A stretch of DNA of 38,433 nt, taken from positions 1 through 38,433 of the forward strand of contig JACIYF010000014.1 in the NCBI GenBank assembly GCA_014360065.1, given 5' to 3'. Positions 2,413 through 38,140 of this stretch are shown piece after piece. The notes beneath the pieces were generated by a model. The model had not been told where the DNA came from. It searched no databases and saw only the letters and a list, made by a program, of their open reading frames with translations. The translations under genes were made by a program, and so were the position numbers. The stretch comes from Clostridia bacterium. GTDB lineage: Bacteria; Bacillota; DSM-521; Neomoorellales; JACIYF01. Every line of letters starts with the position of its first letter. The stretch's first letter is position 1.

Positions 2413-3777
2413 TTGTCTAACCAAGCACTAGCCCGGCAACAGAATATCGTTGCCCGCCTCGAGCGCTTGCCGTTTACTTCTTGGCACGTGAAAATGCGCT
2501 TGATTGTGGGCATTGCTACCTTCTTTGACGCTTTCGATGCAGTAAGCATCGCCTACGTATTACCGGTAATTATCCCCCTGTGGAAGATAGCCCCCACGCA
2601 CGTCGGCCTTTTAATATCCGTTGGTTACGTAGGTCAGATCCTTGGCGCATTCTTCTTTGGCTGGTTTGCGGAAAGATCTGGGCGTCTCAAGTCCCTCACT
2701 CTTTCAGTAGCAATACTGGGCATTATGTCCTTTCTCTGTGCTGTATCCTGGAACTATGTTTCCCTCCTTGTCTTCAGATTTATCCAGGGGTTCGGCCTCG
2801 GTGGAGAAGTGCCGGTGGCCGCAGCTTATATCAACGAATTGAGTAAGGCCAAGGGCCGTGGTAAGTTTGTTCTTCTGTATGAGCTCATCTTTGTTGTTGG
2901 TCTAGTAATGGCGGCACTGCTCGGCTATTGGGTAGTCCCTCACCTAGGCTGGCACTATATGTTCTTGATTGGCGGTGCTCCTGCCCTGGTGATCCCCCTT
3001 TTCCTTCGTTTTCTCCCAGAATCGCCACGTTGGCTGGCTAACCATGGTCGTATTGACGAAGCGGAAAAACTAGTTACGGATCTCGAACGTATTATGAGCC
3101 GAAACGGTCAGGTCGAGCTACCCCCCGTACAAGAGGCTACCGTAACGCTGGCAGAAAAACCTACGAGCTGGAGAGAGCTTTTTCAAGGTATCTATCTGCG
3201 TAGAACCCTGACCGTTTGGGTGATTTGGTTTGGCGCTTATTTCGTCACCTACGGCCTAACCACTTGGTTACCCGCGCTTTATTCTTCAGTCTTCAAACTG
3301 CCCTTACAGCAATCTCTGCTTTACAGCCTGATCACTAGCGTCGCAGGCTTCATTGGAGCATTTATCTGCGCCCTGCTAATTGATACCGTAGGACGCAAAG
3401 CATGGTTTACTATGGCCTTCCTGGGCGGTGCCCTCTTTATGTTTGCTCTCTGGCAGACGGGGGCTCGCACCCCGCAGATTGTGGTGACCTATGCCTCTTT
3501 AAGCTATCTGTTCATTTCTTCAATTTCGCTGGCTCTATATCTGTACAGCCCGGAGATTTATCCTACCCGCATGCGGGCCTTGGGTAGCAGCATCGGCAGC
3601 GCTTGGTTGCGCGTCGCTTCAGCTATCGGCCCCTACGTGGTAGGCGTTGTTGTCTCGAGTTACTCGTTATCTTTAGCGTTTGCCATCTTCGGTCTAGTGG
3701 CCTTAATTGCCGCCGTAATTACAGGCATGTTCGCCGTGGAGACAAAGGGTAAGGTTCTAGAGGAAATATCCCCTTAG
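2413..3777 (+). CDS. MFS transporter (sugar porter / aromatic-acid:H+ symporter-like)
   Basis: 454 aa with about 12 hydrophobic segments, an inner-membrane secondary carrier. Family marks are the loop 2-3 motif GWFAERSGRLKS (about 83-94), RFIQGFGLGGEVPVAAAYINEL split around TM4-5, PESPRWL after TM6, a hydrophilic central loop (about 205-255) and PEIYPTRMRALGSS near TM10-11. The acidic pair in TM1 (DAFDAVS) resembles aromatic-acid symporters. The start is TTG at 2413 with GGAAGGAG about 10 nt upstream. It is very similar along its length to the broken copy at 8117-9487. Its position behind the lyase gene suggests it imports that enzyme's substrate. Confidence 0.88.
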   Translation: MSNQALARQQNIVARLERLPFTSWHVKMRLIVGIATFFDAFDAVSIAYVLPVIIPLWKIAPTHVGLLISVGYVGQILGAFFFGWFAERSGRLKSLTLSVAILGIMSFLCAVSWNYVSLLVFRFIQGFGLGGEVPVAAAYINELSKAKGRGKFVLLYELIFVVGLVMAALLGYWVVPHLGWHYMFLIGGAPALVIPLFLRFLPESPRWLANHGRIDEAEKLVTDLERIMSRNGQVELPPVQEATVTLAEKPTSWRELFQGIYLRRTLTVWVIWFGAYFVTYGLTTWLPALYSSVFKLPLQQSLLYSLITSVAGFIGAFICALLIDTVGRKAWFTMAFLGGALFMFALWQTGARTPQIVVTYASLSYLFISSISLALYLYSPEIYPTRMRALGSSIGSAWLRVASAIGPYVVGVVVSSYSLSLAFAIFGLVALIAAVITGMFAVETKGKVLEEISP

Positions 3778-8116: not shown

Positions 8117-9487
8117 TCATGGGGATACCTGTTCGAGTACCTTACCCCTTGTTTCTACTGCAAACAAGCCCGTAATAACGGCGCCGACCAATGCTATTAT
8201 TCCGAACATGGCGAAGACCACGCTGATGGAAGCATACTGACCCACTATGAATCCAACGATGGAAGGTCCGATGGCCGAAGCGATCCGCAACCATGCACTG
8301 CCAACACTGCTACCAAGAGCCCTCATGCGAGTCGGATATATCTCGGGGCTGTAAAGGTAAAGCGCCAGAGAAATTGAACTGATAAAAAAATAGCTGATAG
8401 AAGCGAAAAGTAGTACTGTGCCGGGAGATCCTGCACCTTTAAGCCAGATAATCAACATGAAAATCCCACCGCCTATAAACGCCCCCGTGAACCATGTCTT
8501 GCGGCCCATGGCGTCGATTAGCAAAGCACAGACCAGAGTCCCCAACAACCCGGCGCAACTGGTAATCAGACCGAATAACAGGGACTTTTGCAACGGGAGC
8601 TTAAAGATACTGGAGTAAAGTGTTGGAAGCCAGGTCGTCAATCCATAGTTAACGAAATATCCACAAAACCAAATCACCCACACTGTCAGTGTTCTTCTCA
8701 GGTAAATTCCCTGGAACAGTTCTCGCCAATTGGTAGGCTTATTTTCCTTGATAGCCACTTTGGTCGCATCATAGGCAGGCAAATCAATACGACCGTTGTC
8801 GCTGATGATCCTCTCGAGCTCAGATACAACCTTCTCTGCTTCATCAAATCTGTTGTGGCTGGCCAACCAGCGGGGAGATTCGGGAAGATGGCGCATAAAG
8901 ACCGGTATTATCAGTGCAGGAAGAGCCCCAATCAGGAACATGTAGCGCCATCCGAAATGGGGGACAATCCAGAACCCAAGCAGCGCAGCGCAGACAAGCC
9001 CTACCGCAAAGATCATCTCATAGAGGAGGACAAACCTGCCACGCCCCTGAGCTTTACAAAGTTCGTTAATATATGTCGCGGCTACAGGCACCTCACCTCC
9101 CAGGCCAAATCCCTGAATCAGGCGGAAGATGAACAATGACATGTAATTTCACGAGAATGCACAAGCTAACGACATTACGGCAAGTATTGAAACACTGAGG
9201 ATGAGGGAATTGACACGCCCTTTCTTTTCTGCCAGCATGCCAAAGAAGAAGGCCCCAAGTAACTGTCCTAAATAACCAATGGAAATCAGTAAGCCGATTC
9301 TAGTTGGATCTATCTTCCAAAGAGGAATCAGAACCGGCATGATATATGCAATCGAAACCGCATCCAAAGCATCAAAAAATGTTGCAACACCCACGATAAC
9401 ACGCATTTTAACATGCCACATATGAAATGGCAGTCGCTCAATCCGTGCGATTATATTCTGCTGTCTCAAAGTTGCCTCATTTGCCAC
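8117..9487 (-). pseudogene. MFS transporter paralogue interrupted by one in-frame TGA
   Basis: From GTG 9487 (SD AGGAGGTTG, 7 nt upstream) to 8117 the frame is continuous for 456 codons, except for a single TGA at 9149-9151 (codon 113). The two halves (112 aa, and 341 aa from the next ATG) stay in the same frame and align from end to end with the intact carrier at 2413-3777, where the equivalent residue is Trp113 (SWNYVSL). A TGG-to-TGA transition explains it. The 3' part keeps the PESPRWL and PEIYPTRMRALGSS motifs, so decay is recent or the stop is a sequencing error. It is last of three minus-strand genes after the lyase and CynX-like genes. Confidence 0.85.
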
Positions 9488-22224: not shown

Positions 22225-22683
22225 TTAGCTGGACCTGCCGGAGCAGACTGTCGAAAGGAAGCCTTCCAAGAACTCTTTCGTATCTTTAACAGGTATGGGG
22301 AACCCCTGCTTAACCTTCTCGGCAAGGATGTGCTGTTTATCCAGGGTTACCAAAAAGCCCGCGGCTGCCTTATATGCCCCTGCCAGCACGTGGCAATCCT
22401 TCTCAGCTACCAGGTCCCGCCACCGGTCTTTTTCCTCCGGGGTAGGCCCGTCCGCCAGCTCGACCTCCGTTGTTCCCAGCTCCTGGTAGAACCGCAGCAG
22501 GGCACCCTTGCTCATCTTCGCCTTTATGTTGCGTTCAGCCTCCAAAAGCACCTGCCTGGTAGCTGCAATCTGTAGGTATCCCGCCCGGGCCAGCTTAAGG
22601 ATCATTGCCGATCCTCCGCCAGGAGATCCGGCGGCTGCTATCCAGCAACTCGCATCTAAGAAAACCTTAACCTTTTCGCTCAT
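22225..22683 (-). CDS. PIN-domain toxin (VapC-like ribonuclease)
   Basis: 152 aa. The N-terminus KVFLDASCWIAAAGSPGGGS carries the first catalytic Asp (D10). A central acidic cluster follows, then DCHVLAGAYKAAAGFLVTLD, matching the PIN order of D/E, then Asp-x-x-His/Val-Leu, then the LVTLDKQH core with a late Asp. PIN toxins cleave RNA with a Mg2+ site. It overlaps the upstream HTH gene by ATGA (22680-22683), the usual antitoxin-first layout of VapBC modules. The antitoxin here is an excisionase-like HTH protein rather than VapB. Confidence 0.75.
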   Translation of the reverse strand: MSEKVKVFLDASCWIAAAGSPGGGSAMILKLARAGYLQIAATRQVLLEAERNIKAKMSKGALLRFYQELGTTEVELADGPTPEEKDRWRDLVAEKDCHVLAGAYKAAAGFLVTLDKQHILAEKVKQGFPIPVKDTKEFLEGFLSTVCSGRSS

Positions 22684-22964
22684 GGGTTAAGCAGGCGCTC
22701 GACGTTGCGGGCAACTTCCGGGCTGATTCTATCGGCCTCCAAGAACTCACGAATCTCCTGGCGGGTATAGTCCCTCGACGGCAAGGTTTCTCCAGGTTTC
22801 CTTTCCTCCCCCAAAAACGTCTCCAGGTCACACTCCCTTATTCTCCATAGCTTACCCGTTTTTATTCCCTTGAGCTTACCTTCCCTCAACCAATCCCGGA
22901 TGGTTTTAGGGCTTACAATCAGCCGATCGGCTACCTCTTCGGGGGTCAGAAGTCTTTCGGCCAT
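22680..22964 (-). CDS. HTH (excisionase/MerR-like) antitoxin
   Basis: 94 aa from ATG 22964, chosen because AAGGAGG lies 8-9 nt upstream and the promoter at 22990-23018 excludes the longer frame. LLTPEEVADRLIVSPKTIRD and WLREGKLKGIKTGKLWRIRE are a typical helix-17/excisionase DNA-binding domain. The C-terminal half (TRQEIREFLEADRISPEVAR) is acidic-helical and would bind the PIN toxin. Probably represses its own promoter. Confidence 0.75.
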   Translation of the reverse strand: MAERLLTPEEVADRLIVSPKTIRDWLREGKLKGIKTGKLWRIRECDLETFLGEERKPGETLPSRDYTRQEIREFLEADRISPEVARNVERLLNP

Positions 22965-22989
22965 TTGTACCACCTCCTTATCATCACCT

Positions 22990-23018
22990 ACTATAGCGGC
23001 CTCATCCACAGCTGTCAA
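22990..23018 (-). promoter_or_regulatory. Sigma-A promoter of the PIN/HTH toxin-antitoxin pair
   Basis: On the minus strand TTGACA (23018-23013), a 17-nt spacer, then TATAGT (22995-22990). A near-perfect vegetative promoter, with the start site near 22983 and the SD directly after it. Confidence 0.85.
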
Positions 23019-28559: not shown

Positions 28560-29951
28560 ATGCGAGTATATCAAGCTGAAAGAAATGATCCTTGCCCCTG
28601 CGGAAGCGGTCGCAAGTACAAGAAATGTTGCCAGGCAGAAGTGGAACATCAAACCCGCCTAATCAGCCAAGCAGTAGGTCCTGGAGTCACTGCTCACGGC
28701 CGCGAAGTAATTGAGACGCTGGGTTTTATGATCGGCCTAAAGCAACCAGAAGGCCACCCACCCGATGCCACTTTACTGGGGCAGCTCCTGCGTGAGGTCT
28801 GGGAGAAGGAAGAGGAAGAGCTGGGTAAAGGTAAAGCAGACTTTGAGCAAATCCTTGAGGGATTCGCGGAGCTAATGCAAAATAAGCCGAATCTCCGTTA
28901 TTTGCGCATACCCGGCCCCGTGTGGTTCGCAGCCACTGAGTTCGCCAAGGAGGAACTGGGGGAGGAAGAGAAAGAAAGTGATCTCGACGAAAAATACTTA
29001 GATGCCATCCTGGACTATACGGCGGAGGAGCTTGGGACAGACTGGATCGTAGACGGGATAGAACAGATGGCCTTGTCCTTGCAATACGATAGTTACAACA
29101 ACGACGAGCTGAAGACCCTACTGACGGTGCTGGGGTGGTGGCTGGATCCGAGCAAAAATGAGATCTTATTGACACTGCTCCTGAGCGTTACTGCCGCCGA
29201 CCTGGCAGCCGGCCAAAGCGAGCTCAAATCTATCTTAGAAAGCTCAGATGATGACTCGATGCAGATGCAAAAGGCGCGCCAGCTGTTCATACGCTATCCG
29301 GTTCTCGAGGAAGTACACTCTGCCCGCTTAGTAGAAGAAGTGGAACTAGCCTACCGGCAAATCATGGATGGGTCTCTGAATCTGGATGTCCCCTTTTATG
29401 CCATCTCAGGAGGCACCTTTGCAGCCTTGGCCAGTACCATCGATTTACTTGAGAAAATGGATTTAAAGAAGCTCATATTGGCAGCAGATCTGCCAGCCCG
29501 AGAGCTCCTGGGGCCGGCCCTCTGGGAAGAGGGAGAGGTCAGGTTCTTCCTGCACGAAGTGCTCAAGCTTCTGAAACAAGAGCAGGAAAAGAATCCAGAT
29601 AGTCCCCTTGGTCGTTCTCTGGAAAGCCTTATGGTGGCCTTGGCTGCTGTAGTAACGGTTTTTCAGGTACAGCTAGTAGAAACGCTGTATATCCGCTGCA
29701 TTGCGCGCCTCCACCAACGCTTCCCCCTGCATCTTCCAGGAGTGGATACCCTGGTTGAAGGGCCTGTCGAACTGCTGGATCCTGCTATCATTGAAGAGTA
29801 CGCTGCCTACTTGGAGTCCCAGGACCAAAAGGAGGAGGCCAACCATCTGCGCCGCCAGTATCAAGCCTATGGTGCCGGTGTCAAGGAAAAACTGGCGGTC
29901 CTCCCTGAGCTTTGGGTGGAAAAGCTCTTGCACATGAACTCCTCCAGCTGA
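28560..29951 (+). CDS. SEC-C zinc-motif protein of unknown function
   Basis: 463 aa. The N-terminal SEC-C motif CPCGSGRKYKKCC (12-24) carries the four zinc ligands (C12, C14, C23, C24), as at the tail of SecA and in many phage- or defence-linked proteins. The rest is mainly alpha-helical and acidic with repeated Leu-rich helices, and no membrane segment. Family not recognised beyond the motif. The last residues (MNSSS) and the stop codon lie within a 78-bp stretch (29936-30013) that is 91% identical by eye to part of the ParE toxin gene at 33851-33928, so the native C-terminus has been replaced or trimmed by a recombination event. Confidence 0.75.
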   Translation: MRVYQAERNDPCPCGSGRKYKKCCQAEVEHQTRLISQAVGPGVTAHGREVIETLGFMIGLKQPEGHPPDATLLGQLLREVWEKEEEELGKGKADFEQILEGFAELMQNKPNLRYLRIPGPVWFAATEFAKEELGEEEKESDLDEKYLDAILDYTAEELGTDWIVDGIEQMALSLQYDSYNNDELKTLLTVLGWWLDPSKNEILLTLLLSVTAADLAAGQSELKSILESSDDDSMQMQKARQLFIRYPVLEEVHSARLVEEVELAYRQIMDGSLNLDVPFYAISGGTFAALASTIDLLEKMDLKKLILAADLPARELLGPALWEEGEVRFFLHEVLKLLKQEQEKNPDSPLGRSLESLMVALAAVVTVFQVQLVETLYIRCIARLHQRFPLHLPGVDTLVEGPVELLDPAIIEEYAAYLESQDQKEEANHLRRQYQAYGAGVKEKLAVLPELWVEKLLHMNSSS

Positions 29952-30013
29952 GAAATGGCTTTATCTGGCCTGTCGATAAGTTCGGTTGCGGCTTGCGGCG
30001 CATCGAGCCGGCC
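29936..30013 (-). repeat. 78-bp remnant of a ParE/RelE-type toxin gene
   Basis: Matches 33851-33928 with 7 differences in 78 bp (my count). In the toxin frame on the minus strand it reads APQAATELIDRPDKAISQLE. It is an orphan fragment, with the rest of the toxin and its antitoxin missing here. Confidence 0.85.
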
Positions 30014-30494: not shown

Positions 30495-30848
30495 GCCGGC
30501 GAATCTTGCGTATGCGGAGACGCTTAGGTGTAATAACCGAAAAGGCCCCTCAAGCTCGGCCAGATGCAGCTCTGTAACACTGGCAACGAGCGATCCTTTT
30601 AACCCTTGGGGTATACCAGCCAGCCGAATAAGGATTACACCCTTGATTACGCAGTGCTGGCGAAACACGATTTCTCCAAAATCCTTGTCCGCCGTAACCA
30701 GTATGGCTCACTGCTTGTTTGCTAGATCAAAAACTGCATCGTCGGTAATTCCAGGTTCCATTTCGGCCACGTAAGTAACCTTATAGCCATGCGCCCGCAA
30801 GGCAACCACAATGTCTCTATCGACACTTTCATCAGCCAGGAAATTCAT
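30474..30848 (-). pseudogene. DUF5615 (PIN-like) toxin interrupted by in-frame TGA
   Basis: ATG 30848 opens MNFLADESVDRDIVVALRAH, continues GYKVTYVAEMEPGITDDAVF, reaches TGA at 30708-30710 (codon 47), and goes on in the same frame as AILVTADKDFGEIVFRQHCV and further to TAA at 30474. The DES and TADKDFGE motifs are those of the DUF5615/Mut7-C PIN-like nucleases. A CGA-to-TGA change is the simplest cause. It overlaps the DUF433 gene by ATGA. Without readthrough only 46 residues are made, leaving the pair without a working toxin. Confidence 0.8.
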
Positions 30849-31150
30849 TGAACTTCCTCTTGGACAGGATAGACCACATCAGCCCGAATAGCTTCTGCCG
30901 CAAAAGCAAGTGCGGCCCGGATTGCCTCCTCAGTCAACCGCGGGTGCGCTTGAATAATCTGCTCCACAGTCTCCCCTTGAGCAAGCTTCTCCAGGATTAA
31001 GTCTACCGGGATCCTAGTTCCCGCAATGATTGGCTTGCCCATCAAAAATTTCGGGTCTGATTTAATCAGGTCGGTTTCCACCGGCTGTACACCCCCAATG
31101 TTCCCATTAACATACGTACCATATCTGCCTCCCTTTGGCCTACGAGGCAT
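30845..31150 (-). CDS. DUF433 antitoxin
   Basis: 101 aa. SDPKFLMGKPIIAGTRIPVD and LILEKLAQGETVEQIIQAHP form the DUF433 HTH-type domain; the C-terminus is acidic (YPVQEEVQ). DUF433 proteins are the antitoxins of DUF5615 toxins, and the ATGA overlap with the downstream toxin gene fits. The N-terminal 20 residues are not typical and the SD before ATG 31150 is poor, so the start is uncertain. Confidence 0.75.
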   Translation of the reverse strand: MPRRPKGGRYGTYVNGNIGGVQPVETDLIKSDPKFLMGKPIIAGTRIPVDLILEKLAQGETVEQIIQAHPRLTEEAIRAALAFAAEAIRADVVYPVQEEVQ

Positions 31151-31342
31151 CCTACAATGTTGTCAAAATGACTGGATTAATAGCTGCCATCCTGATTTTG
31201 GTGCCGGCAGGTAAGGGATATCCTACCCTCAGTATATCATGAACTTGCTACCCCAACAACGAACCGCTCCGGCTCCGGCCTTGCATCTTGATGGTTTAAC
31301 CGCAGGCAGAATTCTAAATGGAACCCAGATCCCTAAAGCTAG

Positions 31343-31771
31343 CTACTCTTCCGCAAAGTACCTCTTCACCATTGCCGCTATGAACGGTTTGAAGTCACCC
31401 AGATGATTCTGGATTATATCCCAGACTTCATCGGCATCAACCTGGTCGTAAAGGTGCACCACCCGATTGCGAAACCGAACCATGGCTTTATAGGTTTCTT
31501 TCATTTCCGCCGGCACTAGCCCGTGTTGAGCTGCAACTTCAATGGTTTCAGCATAAGTTTTGGGTAGCCCCCATCCCTCTCGGGCCACCACGTGGGTGCA
31601 GGCATCCAGCAAAGCCTCTATTGCCACCTGGAGCATCCGGGTAGCCGCAGCCTCATAAATAGAGTCAGATTTAAACTGGTCCCGGCCCATGCGCCGAAAC
31701 CTTTCTAGCTCCCTCAGCTCCTGACGCATAAACTGCAGCTTCTGCCGGAGCTTTTCTTTGTCGACTGTCAT
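31343..31771 (-). CDS. hepT: HepT-like (DUF86) RNase toxin
   Basis: 142 aa, all helical. The catalytic motif RNRVVHLYD (Arg-x4-His-x-Tyr) lies at about 100-108, the signature of HEPN-type HepT toxins. The Tyr is the residue AMPylated by the MntA partner. ATGA overlap with the upstream nucleotidyltransferase gene (31768-31771). A complete, apparently intact MntA-HepT pair. Confidence 0.85.
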   Translation of the reverse strand: MTVDKEKLRQKLQFMRQELRELERFRRMGRDQFKSDSIYEAAATRMLQVAIEALLDACTHVVAREGWGLPKTYAETIEVAAQHGLVPAEMKETYKAMVRFRNRVVHLYDQVDADEVWDIIQNHLGDFKPFIAAMVKRYFAEE

Positions 31772-32217
31772 AGAAACTCCTCCCGCAACCCCGCGTCGAA
31801 ATCAGCGTACAATTGACGTAGGTCAGGCTGGAAATCACAATACCAGCGGATAACGCTTTCCTTAAAGTCGGCCAACATAACTTCATCCCTAAGATACAAG
31901 AGCCGGCCGGATTCCAGCACCCGCATCTGCAGAGTCACCGGTACTCGTCTCAGGTTTATCAGGTTAACATCATCGTTTCTAACGATGCCAAGTAGATCCG
32001 AAAGCAGCTCTATCTCCCGCTCCAAGTCCCAGGAGCTTCCCGGCACCGGCAAGACCGCTAAATCTAGATCGGATAGCACCGTCTGCAGCTCGGTGCCATA
32101 GGAACCGTGAAGGTAGAGAGCGCCAATGTCACTTTGGCTCTGGGCCAGGGTCTTTAAAGCTGTGAACTGTTCTGGAGAGAGACTCAGCTTTTCCAGCCTT
32201 CGACTCAACCGTACCAC
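31768..32217 (-). CDS. mntA: MntA-like nucleotidyltransferase antitoxin
   Basis: 149 aa. The polymerase-beta-like MNT motif is HGSYGTELQTVLSDLDLAVL: G38-S39, then D50 and D52 as the metal-binding pair. The rest (REIELLSDLLGIVRNDDVNL, LESGRLLYLRD) follows the MntA plan. Inactivates HepT by adding AMP to its active-site Tyr. First gene of the pair, with the toxin gene overlapping its stop. Confidence 0.85.
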   Translation of the reverse strand: MVRLSRRLEKLSLSPEQFTALKTLAQSQSDIGALYLHGSYGTELQTVLSDLDLAVLPVPGSSWDLEREIELLSDLLGIVRNDDVNLINLRRVPVTLQMRVLESGRLLYLRDEVMLADFKESVIRWYCDFQPDLRQLYADFDAGLREEFL

Positions 32218-33670
<1,453 letters not shown>

Positions 33671-33685
33671 GCCCGGCGGGACACC

Positions 33686-34003
33686 TTAAAGTAATCTCTC
33701 ATAATTACGCTTTCCATATATAATGCGGCGAATTTCCACGATGCCCTCGTTCTCCTGTACGGTATAGAAAACAAGATAGTTTTCGACAACCAGTATCCGA
33801 TACTCATCCTCAAGCGTACGTTTAGCCTGATAGGGACGGCCGGAAAATGGGAACTCCTCCAGCTGAGAAATGGCTTTATCCAGCTTGTCGATAAGCTCGG
33901 TTGCGGCTTGTGGCGCATGGAGCTGGCCGCTGATATAGCTGACCATATCTAACAAGTCGGATTGCGCCAGCTTTAAATAACGCAGCCTATACTTCTTTTC
34001 CAT
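33686..34003 (-). CDS. ParE/RelE-family toxin
   Basis: 105 aa from ATG 34003 (the open frame extends further but overlaps the antitoxin gene). RYLKLAQSDLLDMVSYISGQ, ATELIDKLDKAISQLEEFPF, YRILVVENYLVFYTVQENEG and VEIRRIIYGKRNYERLL match the ParE/RelE beta-sheet with the C-terminal RRIIYGKRN motif. It poisons gyrase or ribosome-bound mRNA depending on subtype; ParE is more likely from the R-rich C-terminus. Overlaps the antitoxin by 17 nt. A 78-bp piece of a close relative lies at 29936-30013. Confidence 0.8.
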   Translation of the reverse strand: MEKKYRLRYLKLAQSDLLDMVSYISGQLHAPQAATELIDKLDKAISQLEEFPFSGRPYQAKRTLEDEYRILVVENYLVFYTVQENEGIVEIRRIIYGKRNYERLL

Positions 34004-34265
34004 TGGCAAGTTGCTTCCTTGCTTTCCCGAAAACCTCCGCGTGGCCATACCTAACATCGCTGGTACGGGCTTCCAGTTCTGCTTCTTTGAGCTTAATGAA
34101 AATCTCGTTTTCAAGCTGCATTTTCTCGTATAGTTCAATACTCATAACAACCATATCGCCGTAGCCGTTTTTTGTAAGGAACACCGGTTCACGGCCTTCA
34201 TGGACAATTTTCGAGATCTCAGCAAAATTATTGCGCAGATCCGATATCGGCCTAATTTGTGGCAT
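33987..34265 (-). CDS. Phd/YefM-family antitoxin
   Basis: 92 aa from ATG 34265, chosen for the SD AAGGGGG; the GTG at 34274 lies inside that SD. The N-terminus MPQIRPISDLRNNFAEISKI with EPVFLTKNGYGDMVVMSIEL is the Phd/YefM DNA-binding fold. The C-terminal half (LENEIFIKLKEAELEARTSD and on) binds the toxin. The operator lies 18 bp upstream. Confidence 0.82.
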   Translation of the reverse strand: MPQIRPISDLRNNFAEISKIVHEGREPVFLTKNGYGDMVVMSIELYEKMQLENEIFIKLKEAELEARTSDVRYGHAEVFGKARKQLANGKEV

Positions 34266-34282
34266 AAAAGGCACCCCCTTGT

Positions 34283-34356: not shown

Positions 34357-34397
34357 GTGCGCTATGTCCCCAGGCACCCTGACACAACTAAGCCCGT
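34357..34397 (+). repeat. Degenerate fragment of the galE 3' end
   Basis: 34357-34378 matches galE sequence encoding the VRHVPRR region with 2 differences in 22, and 34384-34397 matches the galE end (CAACTAAGCCCG and then TT as in the 38-kb copy). About 120 bp in between is deleted. It borders the stop codon of the DprA-like gene. Confidence 0.7.
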
Positions 34398-35674
34398 TAA
34401 GATTTAATACCCTCGAACAGCGCTAGCTGACCCCCTTTCTTCGGATCTAGAGCGCTAACGTACCTTACTGGTCTGGCAGTCTTTTGTACTCTACCCAACT
34501 CCTGCGCCTTCTTGAGCCAGTCTTGCATTTGCCCCCGGCGAACCCTCAGCTTTTCCGCCAGCTCTTCCTCGGTCTTAGGGCTATCAAGCTCCCTCTCTAT
34601 ATAAGGCCAAACAATGTCAAATAAGCCGCGCTCATTAGCCAGTTGGGAATCCCGAACTTTTGCTCTAGCCAACGAGGGATTGTTTGTCTCCGCCGGTTGG
34701 GCGTATCCAGCTTCTGCACCATAAGATTCCAACACAGCTCGTAGCCCCCCTTCACCGCCCAGTAGCTCAGGTTCTAGAGGAATTCCGCCTTTCTCAATCA
34801 AGCGCCGGTTACCTTCGGGTATGTTTTCCCCGCCACGTACGAAAAGAGGTACCCACCCGTGCTTAAGATTTTCCACCGCCCCTGCCCAGGTACCACCCTT
34901 GTTCAAGGAAGCAGAAACAACCACAGCGTATCTTGATAGGGCATAAATGTACTTGTTCCGGCACATGGCAGCGCCAACAGTAAAGCGGGCGGCAGGATGA
35001 GATGAGGATAGCAATACGAGACAACCCGATAAGACAGCTTCCCTCACCTGTCGCTGGCGGAGCCGCGCTTCCAGGCTGTCCGCAAGTATACTTACCGCTT
35101 TACCTCCGGCAGCAAGGGCCGAGTCCTGGGCAATCTTATCGACTCCGCGCGCCCCGCCGGAAATAACGATGAGCCCTTCATCTACACATCTTTCCGCTAG
35201 GCGAGCCGCAAAGCCAGCCCCTAGCGCATCAACATCGCGTGCCCCTGCTACCGCCACTCCCTCAACCTGAAGAAGGCCGGGTTCCCCCGCCCCAAAAAGA
35301 ACCAACGGTGCTTGCTGTTTAAGCAGGGATTTCAGGCGAGAAGGGTAAAAAGGATCCGCCCTGGTTACTACCCAGACACCTAGACTTTCCAGTCTTTCCA
35401 ACTCTATGGCCAATTGGCCGCTCCGCGACAAAAGCTTGGCAATGCGATCTGCTTCCTTTCTTGAGAGCCCTAAATGCTCCTGCCATTCTTCGGGATCTGT
35501 GCGGAAAAACGCCTCGGGGGATTTAAGCACTGAAGCAGCTAATTTTCTAGCGATTACATTCCACTCCGGCAGTGTAAAAGGAATCAGATTCTCTTCACTT
35601 TTTTCGCCCTTTCTTGGGATGGCCAAACTGGAACATAGAAGGATTATCGCCTGGCTATCACGGGAGATATTCAT
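34397..35674 (-). CDS. DprA/Smf-like protein of a putative PRTase-linked defence module
   Basis: 425 aa, cytosolic. DprA-type Rossmann core at about 105-310: VAVAGARDVDALGAGFAARL (140-159), ISGGARGVDKIAQDSALAAG (171-190; AQ where AH is common), CRNKYIYALSRYAVVVSASL (238-257), and NKGGTWAGAVENLKHGW in place of the SGTLxTA motif. About residues 340-415 form a winged-helix tail with TEEELAEKLRVRRGQMQDWL. Competence DprA loads RecA on single strands, but this variant, coupled by ATGA overlap to a RecQ-PRTase gene, fits the DprA-like antitoxin/partner of ShosTA-type systems. AGGAGGTGAT SD lies 6 nt before ATG 35674, inside the upstream gene. Confidence 0.82.
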   Translation of the reverse strand: MNISRDSQAIILLCSSLAIPRKGEKSEENLIPFTLPEWNVIARKLAASVLKSPEAFFRTDPEEWQEHLGLSRKEADRIAKLLSRSGQLAIELERLESLGVWVVTRADPFYPSRLKSLLKQQAPLVLFGAGEPGLLQVEGVAVAGARDVDALGAGFAARLAERCVDEGLIVISGGARGVDKIAQDSALAAGGKAVSILADSLEARLRQRQVREAVLSGCLVLLSSSHPAARFTVGAAMCRNKYIYALSRYAVVVSASLNKGGTWAGAVENLKHGWVPLFVRGGENIPEGNRRLIEKGGIPLEPELLGGEGGLRAVLESYGAEAGYAQPAETNNPSLARAKVRDSQLANERGLFDIVWPYIERELDSPKTEEELAEKLRVRRGQMQDWLKKAQELGRVQKTARPVRYVSALDPKKGGQLALFEGIKS

Positions 35675-37806
35675 TCGAAATCACCTCCTCCAGCAGCAGT
35701 TGCCAGCACAAACGGGTGAACGGGACCGCTACCGGCTTCTCGGAGAAGAGTGCCACAGACAGTAAGGGTCCAGCGGGAATCGACCATATCATCTACCAGC
35801 AAGACGGGTCCACCAGGACAGGAACCTTTCACTTGAAAAGCATCTGCCACATTAAGGGCCTGCTGCGTGCTGTTTTGCATGGTCTTTTGCTCAGGCGTAT
35901 TACCAACCTTAACTAGGACAGGATGAAACGGCAAACCGAGGCTGTTCGCCAGCCTTTGAGCAAAATCCCGTACCAGCTCTGGCCGCCGCAGAGAAGGAAC
36001 GGCAGTGACCCATAATGGAGGCGGCTGCGGCTGCCATCGGTTTTTGATCAAATCCACGGCTGCGGACACAAGTTCGTCACTAAACCGGTTGTTCTGATAC
36101 TTATCGATCGCAACCTGGCGGCCCCAGCCGGCATCACCATAAATACACAGACACCTGCCTTCTTCGTTTCGTAAATTATCCCTAATACGCCCTTGCCATC
36201 TTCCAATGCCACCAGCGGGCCATTGTTTCCTCGGTTCGATTATCTGGTAATCACTGCGCAGAAACTGGATGGCCTTTGATACTAGATCACGATTCAAGCT
36301 ACTGGTAAACAGTGGGGATTGGCAGTTTGCGCATTTACCACAGGGGCCAGCATACGGATCATCTAAGTCGCGAGCAATAAACTCCATCAGACATTCCTTC
36401 GTGGCGACAAATTCCTTTATCCTCTCCAGTTCCTGGTAGCGAAGCCGCGTAACCTTCTCAGCTCTTTCTGAGTCAAAAACCCAGGGCTTTGCGGTCCGAA
36501 AATAAGTGCCGCCATTACGAGCAACTGCTCCCTCTACTTGTAGCAACTTTAAACACTTTTCAATCCTCCCCTTAGGGATATTTATACCGGACAGCAACGC
36601 TGGTATTGTCAACCCACCCTCTGATTGTTCGATAGCCTTCAGTACTTCGAGCGTTTCTATAGGACCGGGAAAGGCTGTCCTTATAAAGTAATCCTGGATT
36701 TCATCATCTTCTCGCCCGTTTAAGAGAATGGCAAAAGCATTATCTACGGCGCGCCCTGCCCGACCTACCTGTTGATAATACGAAACCAATGACCCCGGCC
36801 GCTGATAATGGATAACAAACCCCAAATCTGGCTTGTCGAAACCCATTCCTAGAGCTACAGTTGCGACCAGCGCCTTGACTTGATTCCGTAGAAGCTTTTG
36901 TTCCCGTGCTTGTCTTTCTCCATTATGAAGTTTAGCGTGATATTCCCACGCTTCGATGTTTTGCTGACGCAACCATCCGGCCACTCTTTTACAATCTGCT
37001 ATTGTTAAGCAATAAATAATCCCGGAACCGGGCAACCTTGGAAGAGTCTCCGCAAGCCAAGCTAATCTTTCCGCTTGGTTGTTTAGCCTAATATTTTCTA
37101 GCCGTAAAGAGTCCCGTGCCAGTGGGCCTCGCAAAACGAGGAGATCCGGACCAAGCTGCTCCTGGATGTCGTTTACAACCCGCTGGTTTGCCGTTGCCGT
37201 GGTAGCAAGAACCGGGACATTTGGCGGCAGGTTTTTAACGATACGGACAATGCGCCGGTAGTCAGGGCGGAAATCATGTCCCCAATCGGAGATACAGTGC
37301 GCTTCGTCGACCACGAACAACCCGATACCGCCCTTTATCGCCACCAAGGTCTCGGATAAAAAGCGTGGATTGGCCAGCCGCTCCGGCGAAACAAGGAGCA
37401 CGTCACAGGTGCCTTTTTGAAGCTTCTCTTCGACATCTGTCCACTCCTCTTCGTTTGCGCTGTTGATAGATTCGGCCTGGATGCCAATTCTGGCAGCCAT
37501 TTCAATCTGATTGCGCATGAGCGACAATAAAGGACTGATCAGCACGGTAGGACCAGAGCCTTGGTTTCTCAGCATTCTGGTGGCGACAAAGTAAACGACA
37601 CTCTTCCCCCAACCTGTGCGTTGAACCACCAACATTTTCTTCCTCTGGAAAGCAATGAGCTCGATGGCTTCCCATTGCCCATCTCGAAAACTAGCTTGCG
37701 GCCCAAGCATTTTCTTTAGTAATTGTTCTGCCTGTCGTTTTCCTATGCCTGTTTTTATTATGACCACTCCCGGTAAGAACCCTGCCGACAACGGTCCCGG
37801 AACCAA
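35671..37806 (-). CDS. RecQ-family helicase fused to a phosphoribosyltransferase domain
   Basis: 711 aa. Superfamily 2 helicase core: QRTGWGKS (Walker A, 62-69), VVDEAHCISDWGHDFRPDY (DEAH 167-170), ATTATA (201-206), VALGMGFDKPDLGFVIHY (317-334) and QQVGRAGR (345-352). RecQ zinc ligands C472, C489, C492, C495. There is no HRDC domain; instead about 560-711 is a type I PRTase fold with VLLVDDMVDSRWTLT (668-682), the PRPP loop of ComF-like proteins but with Ser-Arg where Thr/Ser-Gly is usual. TTG start at 37806 is the only in-frame choice near the promoter. Relatives with this fusion are frequent in Actinobacteria. Overlaps the DprA-like gene by 4 nt. Helicase-guided PRTase effector is an inference. 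Confidence 0.85.
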   Translation of the reverse strand: MVPGPLSAGFLPGVVIIKTGIGKRQAEQLLKKMLGPQASFRDGQWEAIELIAFQRKKMLVVQRTGWGKSVVYFVATRMLRNQGSGPTVLISPLLSLMRNQIEMAARIGIQAESINSANEEEWTDVEEKLQKGTCDVLLVSPERLANPRFLSETLVAIKGGIGLFVVDEAHCISDWGHDFRPDYRRIVRIVKNLPPNVPVLATTATANQRVVNDIQEQLGPDLLVLRGPLARDSLRLENIRLNNQAERLAWLAETLPRLPGSGIIYCLTIADCKRVAGWLRQQNIEAWEYHAKLHNGERQAREQKLLRNQVKALVATVALGMGFDKPDLGFVIHYQRPGSLVSYYQQVGRAGRAVDNAFAILLNGREDDEIQDYFIRTAFPGPIETLEVLKAIEQSEGGLTIPALLSGINIPKGRIEKCLKLLQVEGAVARNGGTYFRTAKPWVFDSERAEKVTRLRYQELERIKEFVATKECLMEFIARDLDDPYAGPCGKCANCQSPLFTSSLNRDLVSKAIQFLRSDYQIIEPRKQWPAGGIGRWQGRIRDNLRNEEGRCLCIYGDAGWGRQVAIDKYQNNRFSDELVSAAVDLIKNRWQPQPPPLWVTAVPSLRRPELVRDFAQRLANSLGLPFHPVLVKVGNTPEQKTMQNSTQQALNVADAFQVKGSCPGGPVLLVDDMVDSRWTLTVCGTLLREAGSGPVHPFVLATAAGGGDFE

Positions 37807-37842: not shown

Positions 37843-37871
37843 ATTATACAATATTATCCAAACGGTTGGAA
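37843..37871 (-). promoter_or_regulatory. Promoter of the RecQ-PRTase/DprA-like operon
   Basis: Minus-strand TATAAT (37848-37843) with TTCCAA (37871-37866) at 17 nt, giving a transcript start near 37836 and a leader of about 30 nt. The -35 box is weak. It lies at the edge of the duplicated galE tail. Confidence 0.55.
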
Positions 37872-38111
37872 TTGTAGCTACGGCAAAGGTTATTCGGTAC
37901 TGGAAGTAGTAGAGAGCACTAAGAAGGTGACCGGGGTTGATTTCCCGGTGCGCCATGTCCCCAGGCGCCCCGGCGATCCTCCGGCTCTGGTAGCTGACGC
38001 CACCAAGATCCGGCGCGAGCTGGGCTGGCAACCCCGCTACGACGATCTAGACTTTATCCTCCAGACCGCCTGGAACTGGGAGAAAAGTCAACATCATCGC
38101 AACTAAGCCCG
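37870..38111 (+). repeat. Second copy of the galE 3' end (242 bp)
   Basis: Colinear with 33434-33675 without gaps; about 15 differences by eye (94%), most of them silent except near the C-terminus. Encodes the last 79 residues of GalE ([20 protein letters not shown] and onward to QHHRN) with no start, so it is not expressed as a protein. Confidence 0.92.
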
Positions 38112-38112
38112 T

Positions 38113-38140
38113 TTGCCGCCTTATCTTCACGTGTTATAAT
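38113..38140 (+). promoter_or_regulatory. Promoter of the gene at the right edge
   Basis: TTGCCG (38113-38118), 16-nt spacer, TATAAT (38135-38140), followed by GGAGGAG at 38163-38169. Confidence 0.6.

Follow-up and report, generated by a model that had tools for sequence, protein, structure and literature searches.

Close to one end of a 38,433-nucleotide (nt) stretch of Clostridia bacterium DNA (contig JACIYF010000014.1, the whole of which is referred to here as the window) lie two genes encoding a RecQ helicase-phosphoribosyltransferase (PRTase) fusion and a DprA-like protein. With a probability of about 0.9 they constitute a horizontally acquired, intact PsyrTA (equivalent to RqlH-RqlI) toxin-antitoxin module beside galE, with a presumed role against phages or invaders. 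The fusion protein matches the PsyrT model of PADLOC-DB at E 4e-294 over positions 5-685 of 689, and the DprA-like protein matches the PsyrA model at E 7.6e-117 over positions 1-395 of 398, scoring 389 bits on PsyrA versus 80 on the ShosA model of the same database. Because both matches are nearly full-length and the ShosA score is far lower, the pair is assigned to PsyrTA, a system held in PADLOC (PDLC03928/PDLC03927) and DefenseFinder, for which toxin-antitoxin behaviour was reportedly demonstrated in Pseudomonas syringae by Sberro et al. in 2013. What defines the architecture of PsyrTA/RqlHI, as already known, is precisely such a coupling of a RecQ-PRTase fusion with a DprA-like gene. The window presents its features, namely a RecQ core and a C-terminal PRTase within a protein of ~700 amino acids (aa), followed immediately downstream on the same strand by a DprA-like gene.

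RqlH-RqlI of extraintestinal Escherichia coli has been dissected genetically by Russell and Mulvey in 2015 (PMC4670107). RqlH without RqlI causes SOS induction and filamentation in E. coli, and its toxicity is abolished by mutation of the DIVD663 block or by D663A; the PRTase domain by itself is non-toxic, and the helicase mutants K49A and D148A remain harmful (PMC4670107). RqlI binds and counteracts RqlH, and is still functional when its C-terminal helix-turn-helix is removed (PMC4670107). Alignment shows that residues required in RqlH are kept in the PsyrT of the window, K49 corresponding to K68, D148 to D167 and the DIVD663 block to DMVD at 673-676, with K49 and D148 carrying identical numbers in the E. 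coli plasmid homologue. Also, the gene order, the ATGA overlap and the presence of a Shine-Dalgarno (SD) sequence within psyrT agree with the RqlHI operon (PMC4670107). The shosTA, syrTA (PsyrTA) and rqlHI systems were grouped by Rousset et al. in 2022 as having a DprA homolog as antitoxin (PMC9122126).

The initial annotation of this DNA had described the pair as a "helicase-armed ShosTA-like module" and had regarded the combination of genes as noteworthy. Its toxin-antitoxin idea and the proposed kinship with ShosTA are right, as indicated by the PADLOC matches and by the folds, which match ShosT and ShosA, and the helicase-PRTase fusion is indeed known in other bacteria as RqlH/PsyrT. However, the pairing is the known form of PsyrTA, described in 2013-2015 and compared with ShosTA in 2022, and PsyrTA is a sister system of ShosTA, not a ShosTA newly armed with a helicase.

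Both genes are intact open reading frames (ORFs), psyrT being a 711-codon frame from a TTG at 37806 to its stop and psyrA a 425-codon frame starting with ATG (Table 1). The RecQ core, zinc region and C-terminal PRTase previously read in the 711-aa frame are present, with Pfam matches to DEAD (1e-24) and Helicase_C (6e-17), a RecQ_Zn_bind score of 24.9 bits, just under the cut-off of 25, and the four zinc cysteines; the PRTase motif VLLVDDMVDSRWTLT does start at residue 668. Since homology to the relatives begins only near residue 18-21, the TTG start is insecure, and GTG 37767 or ATG 37710 may be the true start. The two genes are co-directional with a 4-nt overlap, and a strong psyrA ribosome-binding site (GGAGGAGGTGATTTCGAATGA) sits within the end of psyrT, both as reported in the initial annotation, which had also called the DprA/Smf gene "divergent", a term that fits its sequence but not its orientation. 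A single promoter for both genes, likewise proposed, is plausible, although the promoter scan upstream of psyrT returned no scored promoter despite the perfect TATAAT found there.

Structure and profile libraries, the check suggested for the C-terminal segment, place it among the PRTases. The AlphaFold model of the last 211 residues of PsyrT, obtained with an alignment from 76 relatives, has a mean predicted local distance difference test (pLDDT) value of 94.5 and a pTM of 0.91. Its best PDB matches are APRTs, Helicobacter pylori ComF (TMq 0.54), PurF and phosphoribosyl pyrophosphate (PRPP) synthetases, and ShosT is also among them (8zvd, TMq 0.54; 8zvb, root-mean-square deviation 2.6). The sequence profile of the domain retrieves PRPP synthetases, HPRT and PurF but does not retrieve ShosT at E<=1, and Pfam Pribosyltran is detected in 50 of 82 family members. 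A C-terminal domain other than a PRTase is ruled out by the fold model together with the PDB, profile and Pfam matches; the cut-off of the ComF subfamily is not reached by the protein (TIGR00201, 17 versus 233.6 bits). The usual PRPP loop reads DDxxxTGxT. The loop consensus of PsyrT is DDxVDSxWTxT, judged from the aligned sequences to be a family-specific form of the PRPP loop, with Trp679 in 91 of the 91 sequences that have a residue at that position, preceded by Arg in 50 and by Gly in 31 of them.

The structure model of PsyrA (pLDDT 91.4) matches DprA of Streptococcus pneumoniae, H. pylori and Rhodopseudomonas palustris, as well as ShosA (8zva). PsyrA stays below the dprA equivalog cut-off (TIGR00732, 86.5 versus 191 bits), and a separate, stronger DprA is encoded on contig C52 of the same genome. 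In 25 of the 69 linked relatives, a few of them perhaps truncated by contig ends, the PsyrA profile match stops before position 330, and these proteins seem to lack the winged helix, in agreement with the dispensable helix-turn-helix of RqlI. Second, solitary PsyrA-like genes with no PsyrT upstream were also observed, at L131 1405-2784 (G070) and L130 1366-2622 (G250), the SGGARGVD motif having drifted to TGGASGLE in the former.

The pair is accessory and not part of the core genome, a point on which the initial annotation had made its reading depend. It was not found in 21 genomes of the same order, and among 300 genomes from the phylum only 9 have the antitoxin PsyrA at E<=1e-40, which rules out a core gene. 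One of 60 relatives, from another family of the phylum, carries a close copy with 85% protein identity, in which 80% nucleotide identity is limited to window positions 34402-37770, that is, to the two genes only, while the flanks are unrelated. The low frequency in the phylum and this copy with unrelated flanks indicate that the pair is accessory and has moved horizontally. Like the pair in the window, the copy lies among small toxin-antitoxin genes. The idea of a phage-encoded pair was rejected: no full-length match exists in 50,697 phage records, and only two near-full-length matches were recovered from IMG/VR.

A scan of genome contigs yielded relatives of which the 80 closest come from many bacterial phyla and from haloarchaea, and this spread, together with the full-length profile matches, rules out chance ORFs. 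Tabulating the neighbours, as had been suggested, gave a clear answer for adjacency: a DprA-like gene directly follows psyrT, nearly always within ~45 nt, in 69 of the 76 relatives whose sequence continues for at least 1.2 kb beyond it, a proportion biased upward for the whole family because these are the best-scoring relatives of a query set in which paired genes abound. Many solo RqlH genes are known, especially in Gram-positives, RqlH standing alone in nearly all (99.6%) Gram-positive genomes (PMC4670107). Within the set retrieved with helicase patterns, the fused helicase-PRTase is the norm. As for defence islands, type I specificity subunits, SoFic, WYL, BrxL, JetD and PIN-domain genes are among the nearest single neighbours of some relatives, a defence neighbourhood that is suggestive and comes without a background control for comparison. 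On plasmids, the pair sits between hsdS and hsdR of a type I restriction-modification system in E. coli, and in Acinetobacter it is flanked by the pglX and pglZ genes of a BREX operon; a near-identical E. coli copy is present in 53 of 5,426 E. coli genomes.

A PRTase free of the helicase was encountered next to PsyrA within BREX operons of two genomes (G310 and G217) of a single genus in the window's phylum, the only cases in a search of the same class; none was found on plasmids. In G310 (C1; L134 8811-10301) the gene order is brxA, brxB, brxC, a 148-aa ORF, PsyrA, pglX and pglZ, and G217 (C19; L136) shares the core of this arrangement, from the end of brxC through the PRTase and PsyrA to the start of pglX. 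The 148-aa ORF, which is the PRTase minus the RecQ part, matches PsyrT positions 540-686 at 1e-54 and ShosT weakly (3e-6). With PsyrA, it may stand midway between ShosTA and PsyrTA or be what is left of a deleted PsyrT.

A working scheme can be drawn from the PRTase-dependent toxicity and RqlI restraint established elsewhere and from the residue conservation, operon structure and folds seen here. PsyrA, presumably translated in a coupled manner with PsyrT from the same mRNA, would bind PsyrT and hold its PRTase inactive, as shown for RqlI and RqlH in E. coli. The RecQ part would load on or move along DNA, where unusual or single-stranded DNA (ssDNA), for instance phage replication intermediates, could engage the helicase and/or the DprA fold of PsyrA. 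Once restraint is lost, the PRTase would modify a nucleotide or DNA, leading to DNA damage and growth arrest. A defence role of PsyrTA is probable.

Several observations weigh against this interpretation. When tested in a native E. coli host, PsyrTA was not seen to protect against phage under the conditions of that assay (PMC12409345). DprA proteins have two ssDNA motifs, G-S/T/A-R and F/L/Y-x-x-R-N/D (PMC9769556), of which PsyrA carries the first as G144-A145-R146, a point in favour of the scheme; its Gly and Arg are present in all 44 sequences. In the second, R239-N240 is kept in all 44, yet Ala236 takes the expected aromatic position in all 44 as well; sensing of ssDNA by PsyrA is uncertain because this motif is only partly kept. 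Finally, no other protein of the RecQ family passes the family cut-off in this genome, which is 99% complete, and for this reason PsyrT might also perform housekeeping RecQ repair.

The latter point also speaks for viewing psyrT as a chromosomal repair helicase of RecQ type that carries a PRTase domain, the DprA-like gene being a repair cofactor, in the manner of the solo RqlH of Actinobacteria. RqlH has known helicase activity in mycobacteria (cited in PMC4670107), and some relatives, such as the one beside secDF in Tsukamurella, have housekeeping genes but no DprA gene as neighbours. However, the psyrT of the window has an overlapping DprA-like gene, both products match the PsyrTA models almost end to end, and few genomes of the phylum carry the pair, which has moved between sites, all of which makes a dedicated repair function very unlikely. 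The kinship with ShosTA could alternatively mean that the pair belongs to the ShosTA family itself, its free PRTase toxin having gained a helicase. The structural matches of the PRTase to ShosT and of PsyrA to ShosA agree with such an origin, as does the occurrence of a free PRTase with PsyrA in a BREX operon. It is nevertheless scarcely credible, given that the gap between the PsyrA and ShosA scores favours a separate sister family, that ShosT escapes the PRTase profile, that fusion is the rule among helicase-retrieved relatives and that the toxin of the window, unlike that of ShosTA, has a helicase domain.

The PsyrTA module is embedded in a series of modules downstream of galE, comprising a ParE/Phd-like pair, PsyrTA and a probable Rpn-like gene, with fragments of the galE 3' end lying between them (Table 1). 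A further 90 nt of this 3' end recur on contig C129 (5832-5921) with 94% identity, and the last 83 nt of the ORF at the window end match an end of the same contig (6423-6505) at 96%. Since the ends of C14 and C129 overlap at 96% rather than 100%, the two may be different copies, and the probable Rpn-like gene would then exist in two or more copies or as strain variants. No recombinase gene was found in the galE-repeat stretch, and an empty galE site was not found in the same species, the nearest genomes belonging to other families with galE ~70% identical. The galE 3'-end copies likely arose when DNA inserted repeatedly at the 3' end of galE or recombined with it.

Table 1. Features of the PsyrTA module and its galE-repeat surroundings in the window.
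Feature	Positions	Strand	Details	Basis
psyrT (rqlH)	35671..37806	-	RecQ-family helicase ~23-500; PRTase domain ~501-711; Walker A K68; DEAH D167; zinc Cys 472/489/492/495; PRPP-loop-like motif 668-682	ORF, Pfam, PADLOC PsyrT, structure prediction
psyrA (rqlI)	34397..35674	-	DprA/Smf-like antitoxin; helical N-terminal region; DprA Rossmann domain ~95-300; C-terminal winged-helix-like domain ~350-407	ORF, PADLOC PsyrA, structure prediction
ATGA, psyrT stop/psyrA start overlap	35671..35674	-	SD AGGAGGTGA just upstream, within psyrT	
Perfect TATAAT	37843..37848	-	Possible -10 box upstream of psyrT	Sequence; no score from promoter scanner there
galE-like epimerase gene	32495..33670	+	Intact; its 3' end recurs in the repeats	
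ParE-like toxin and Phd/YefM-like antitoxin genes	33686..34274	-	Between galE and PsyrTA	
galE 3'-end remnant	34357..34398	+	Short, internally deleted; abuts psyrA stop codon	
244-nt galE 3'-end copy	37870..38113	+	Flanks module on upstream side	37870-38111 has 94% identity to 33434-33675, the final 242 nt of galE
ORF start, cut by contig end	38178..38433	+	Probably Rpn-like; GREEGRQEG-type tail	No Pfam match for this part

Toxin-antitoxin modules are abundant in the region, with a DUF433 protein and a HepT-MntA (HEPN/nucleotidyltransferase) pair upstream of galE (30845-32217) and an HTH/PIN pair at 22225-23018. A 78-nt stretch within the ParE-like toxin gene (33851-33928) recurs with 91% identity downstream of a SEC-C gene (29936-30013), where it is probably what remains of a second ParE copy. 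Elsewhere in the window, an MFS transporter gene at 8117-9487 (-) is split in two frames (9149-9487 and 8117-9142) and resembles an intact one at 2413-3777, representing either a pseudogene or a frameshift error.

These results strike a supposed new system off the list, the fusion and its pairing being textbook PsyrTA, and leave a set of sequences that bears on the target of the PRTase and on the trigger of its release. The DDxVDSxWTxT loop with its invariant Trp, the half-kept ssDNA site of the DprA fold, the antitoxins lacking a winged helix and the helicase-less BREX form make the role of the helicase directly testable. Less ordinary in this genome are the galE 3'-end copies flanking the pair, PsyrT as sole RecQ above the cut-off and, among relatives, the BREX form. 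A broader and rather unlikely view would be that the PRTase and the DprA-like protein form a portable effector-regulator unit with an interchangeable DNA-reading partner, either a RecQ motor or a BREX operon, the fused form here also serving as the only RecQ of the genome and moving as a cassette that inserts at repeated galE 3' ends.

Among known systems, PsyrTA of P. syringae has the same full-length RecQ-PRTase and DprA-like proteins in the same order with a short gap or overlap, while the window copy differs in its host, in its location in a galE-repeat patchwork and in being the sole above-cut-off RecQ of its genome. RqlH-RqlI of E. coli is the ortholog pair; its domains are the same, and the window copy keeps its catalytic Lys and Asp as well as its PRPP-loop block. 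ShosTA, reportedly described by Kimelman in 2012, shares a PRTase toxin, a DprA-like antitoxin, a function in phage defence and matching folds (PDB 8zva, 8zvb, 8zvd and 9vzo), but ShosT has no RecQ helicase and the sequence relation to the window pair is remote. The solo RqlH of Actinobacteria, for example that of Mycobacterium smegmatis, shares the RecQ-PRTase fusion but has no DprA-like partner, whereas with ComF and canonical DprA the pair has in common the ComF-like PRTase fold and the DprA fold, respectively.

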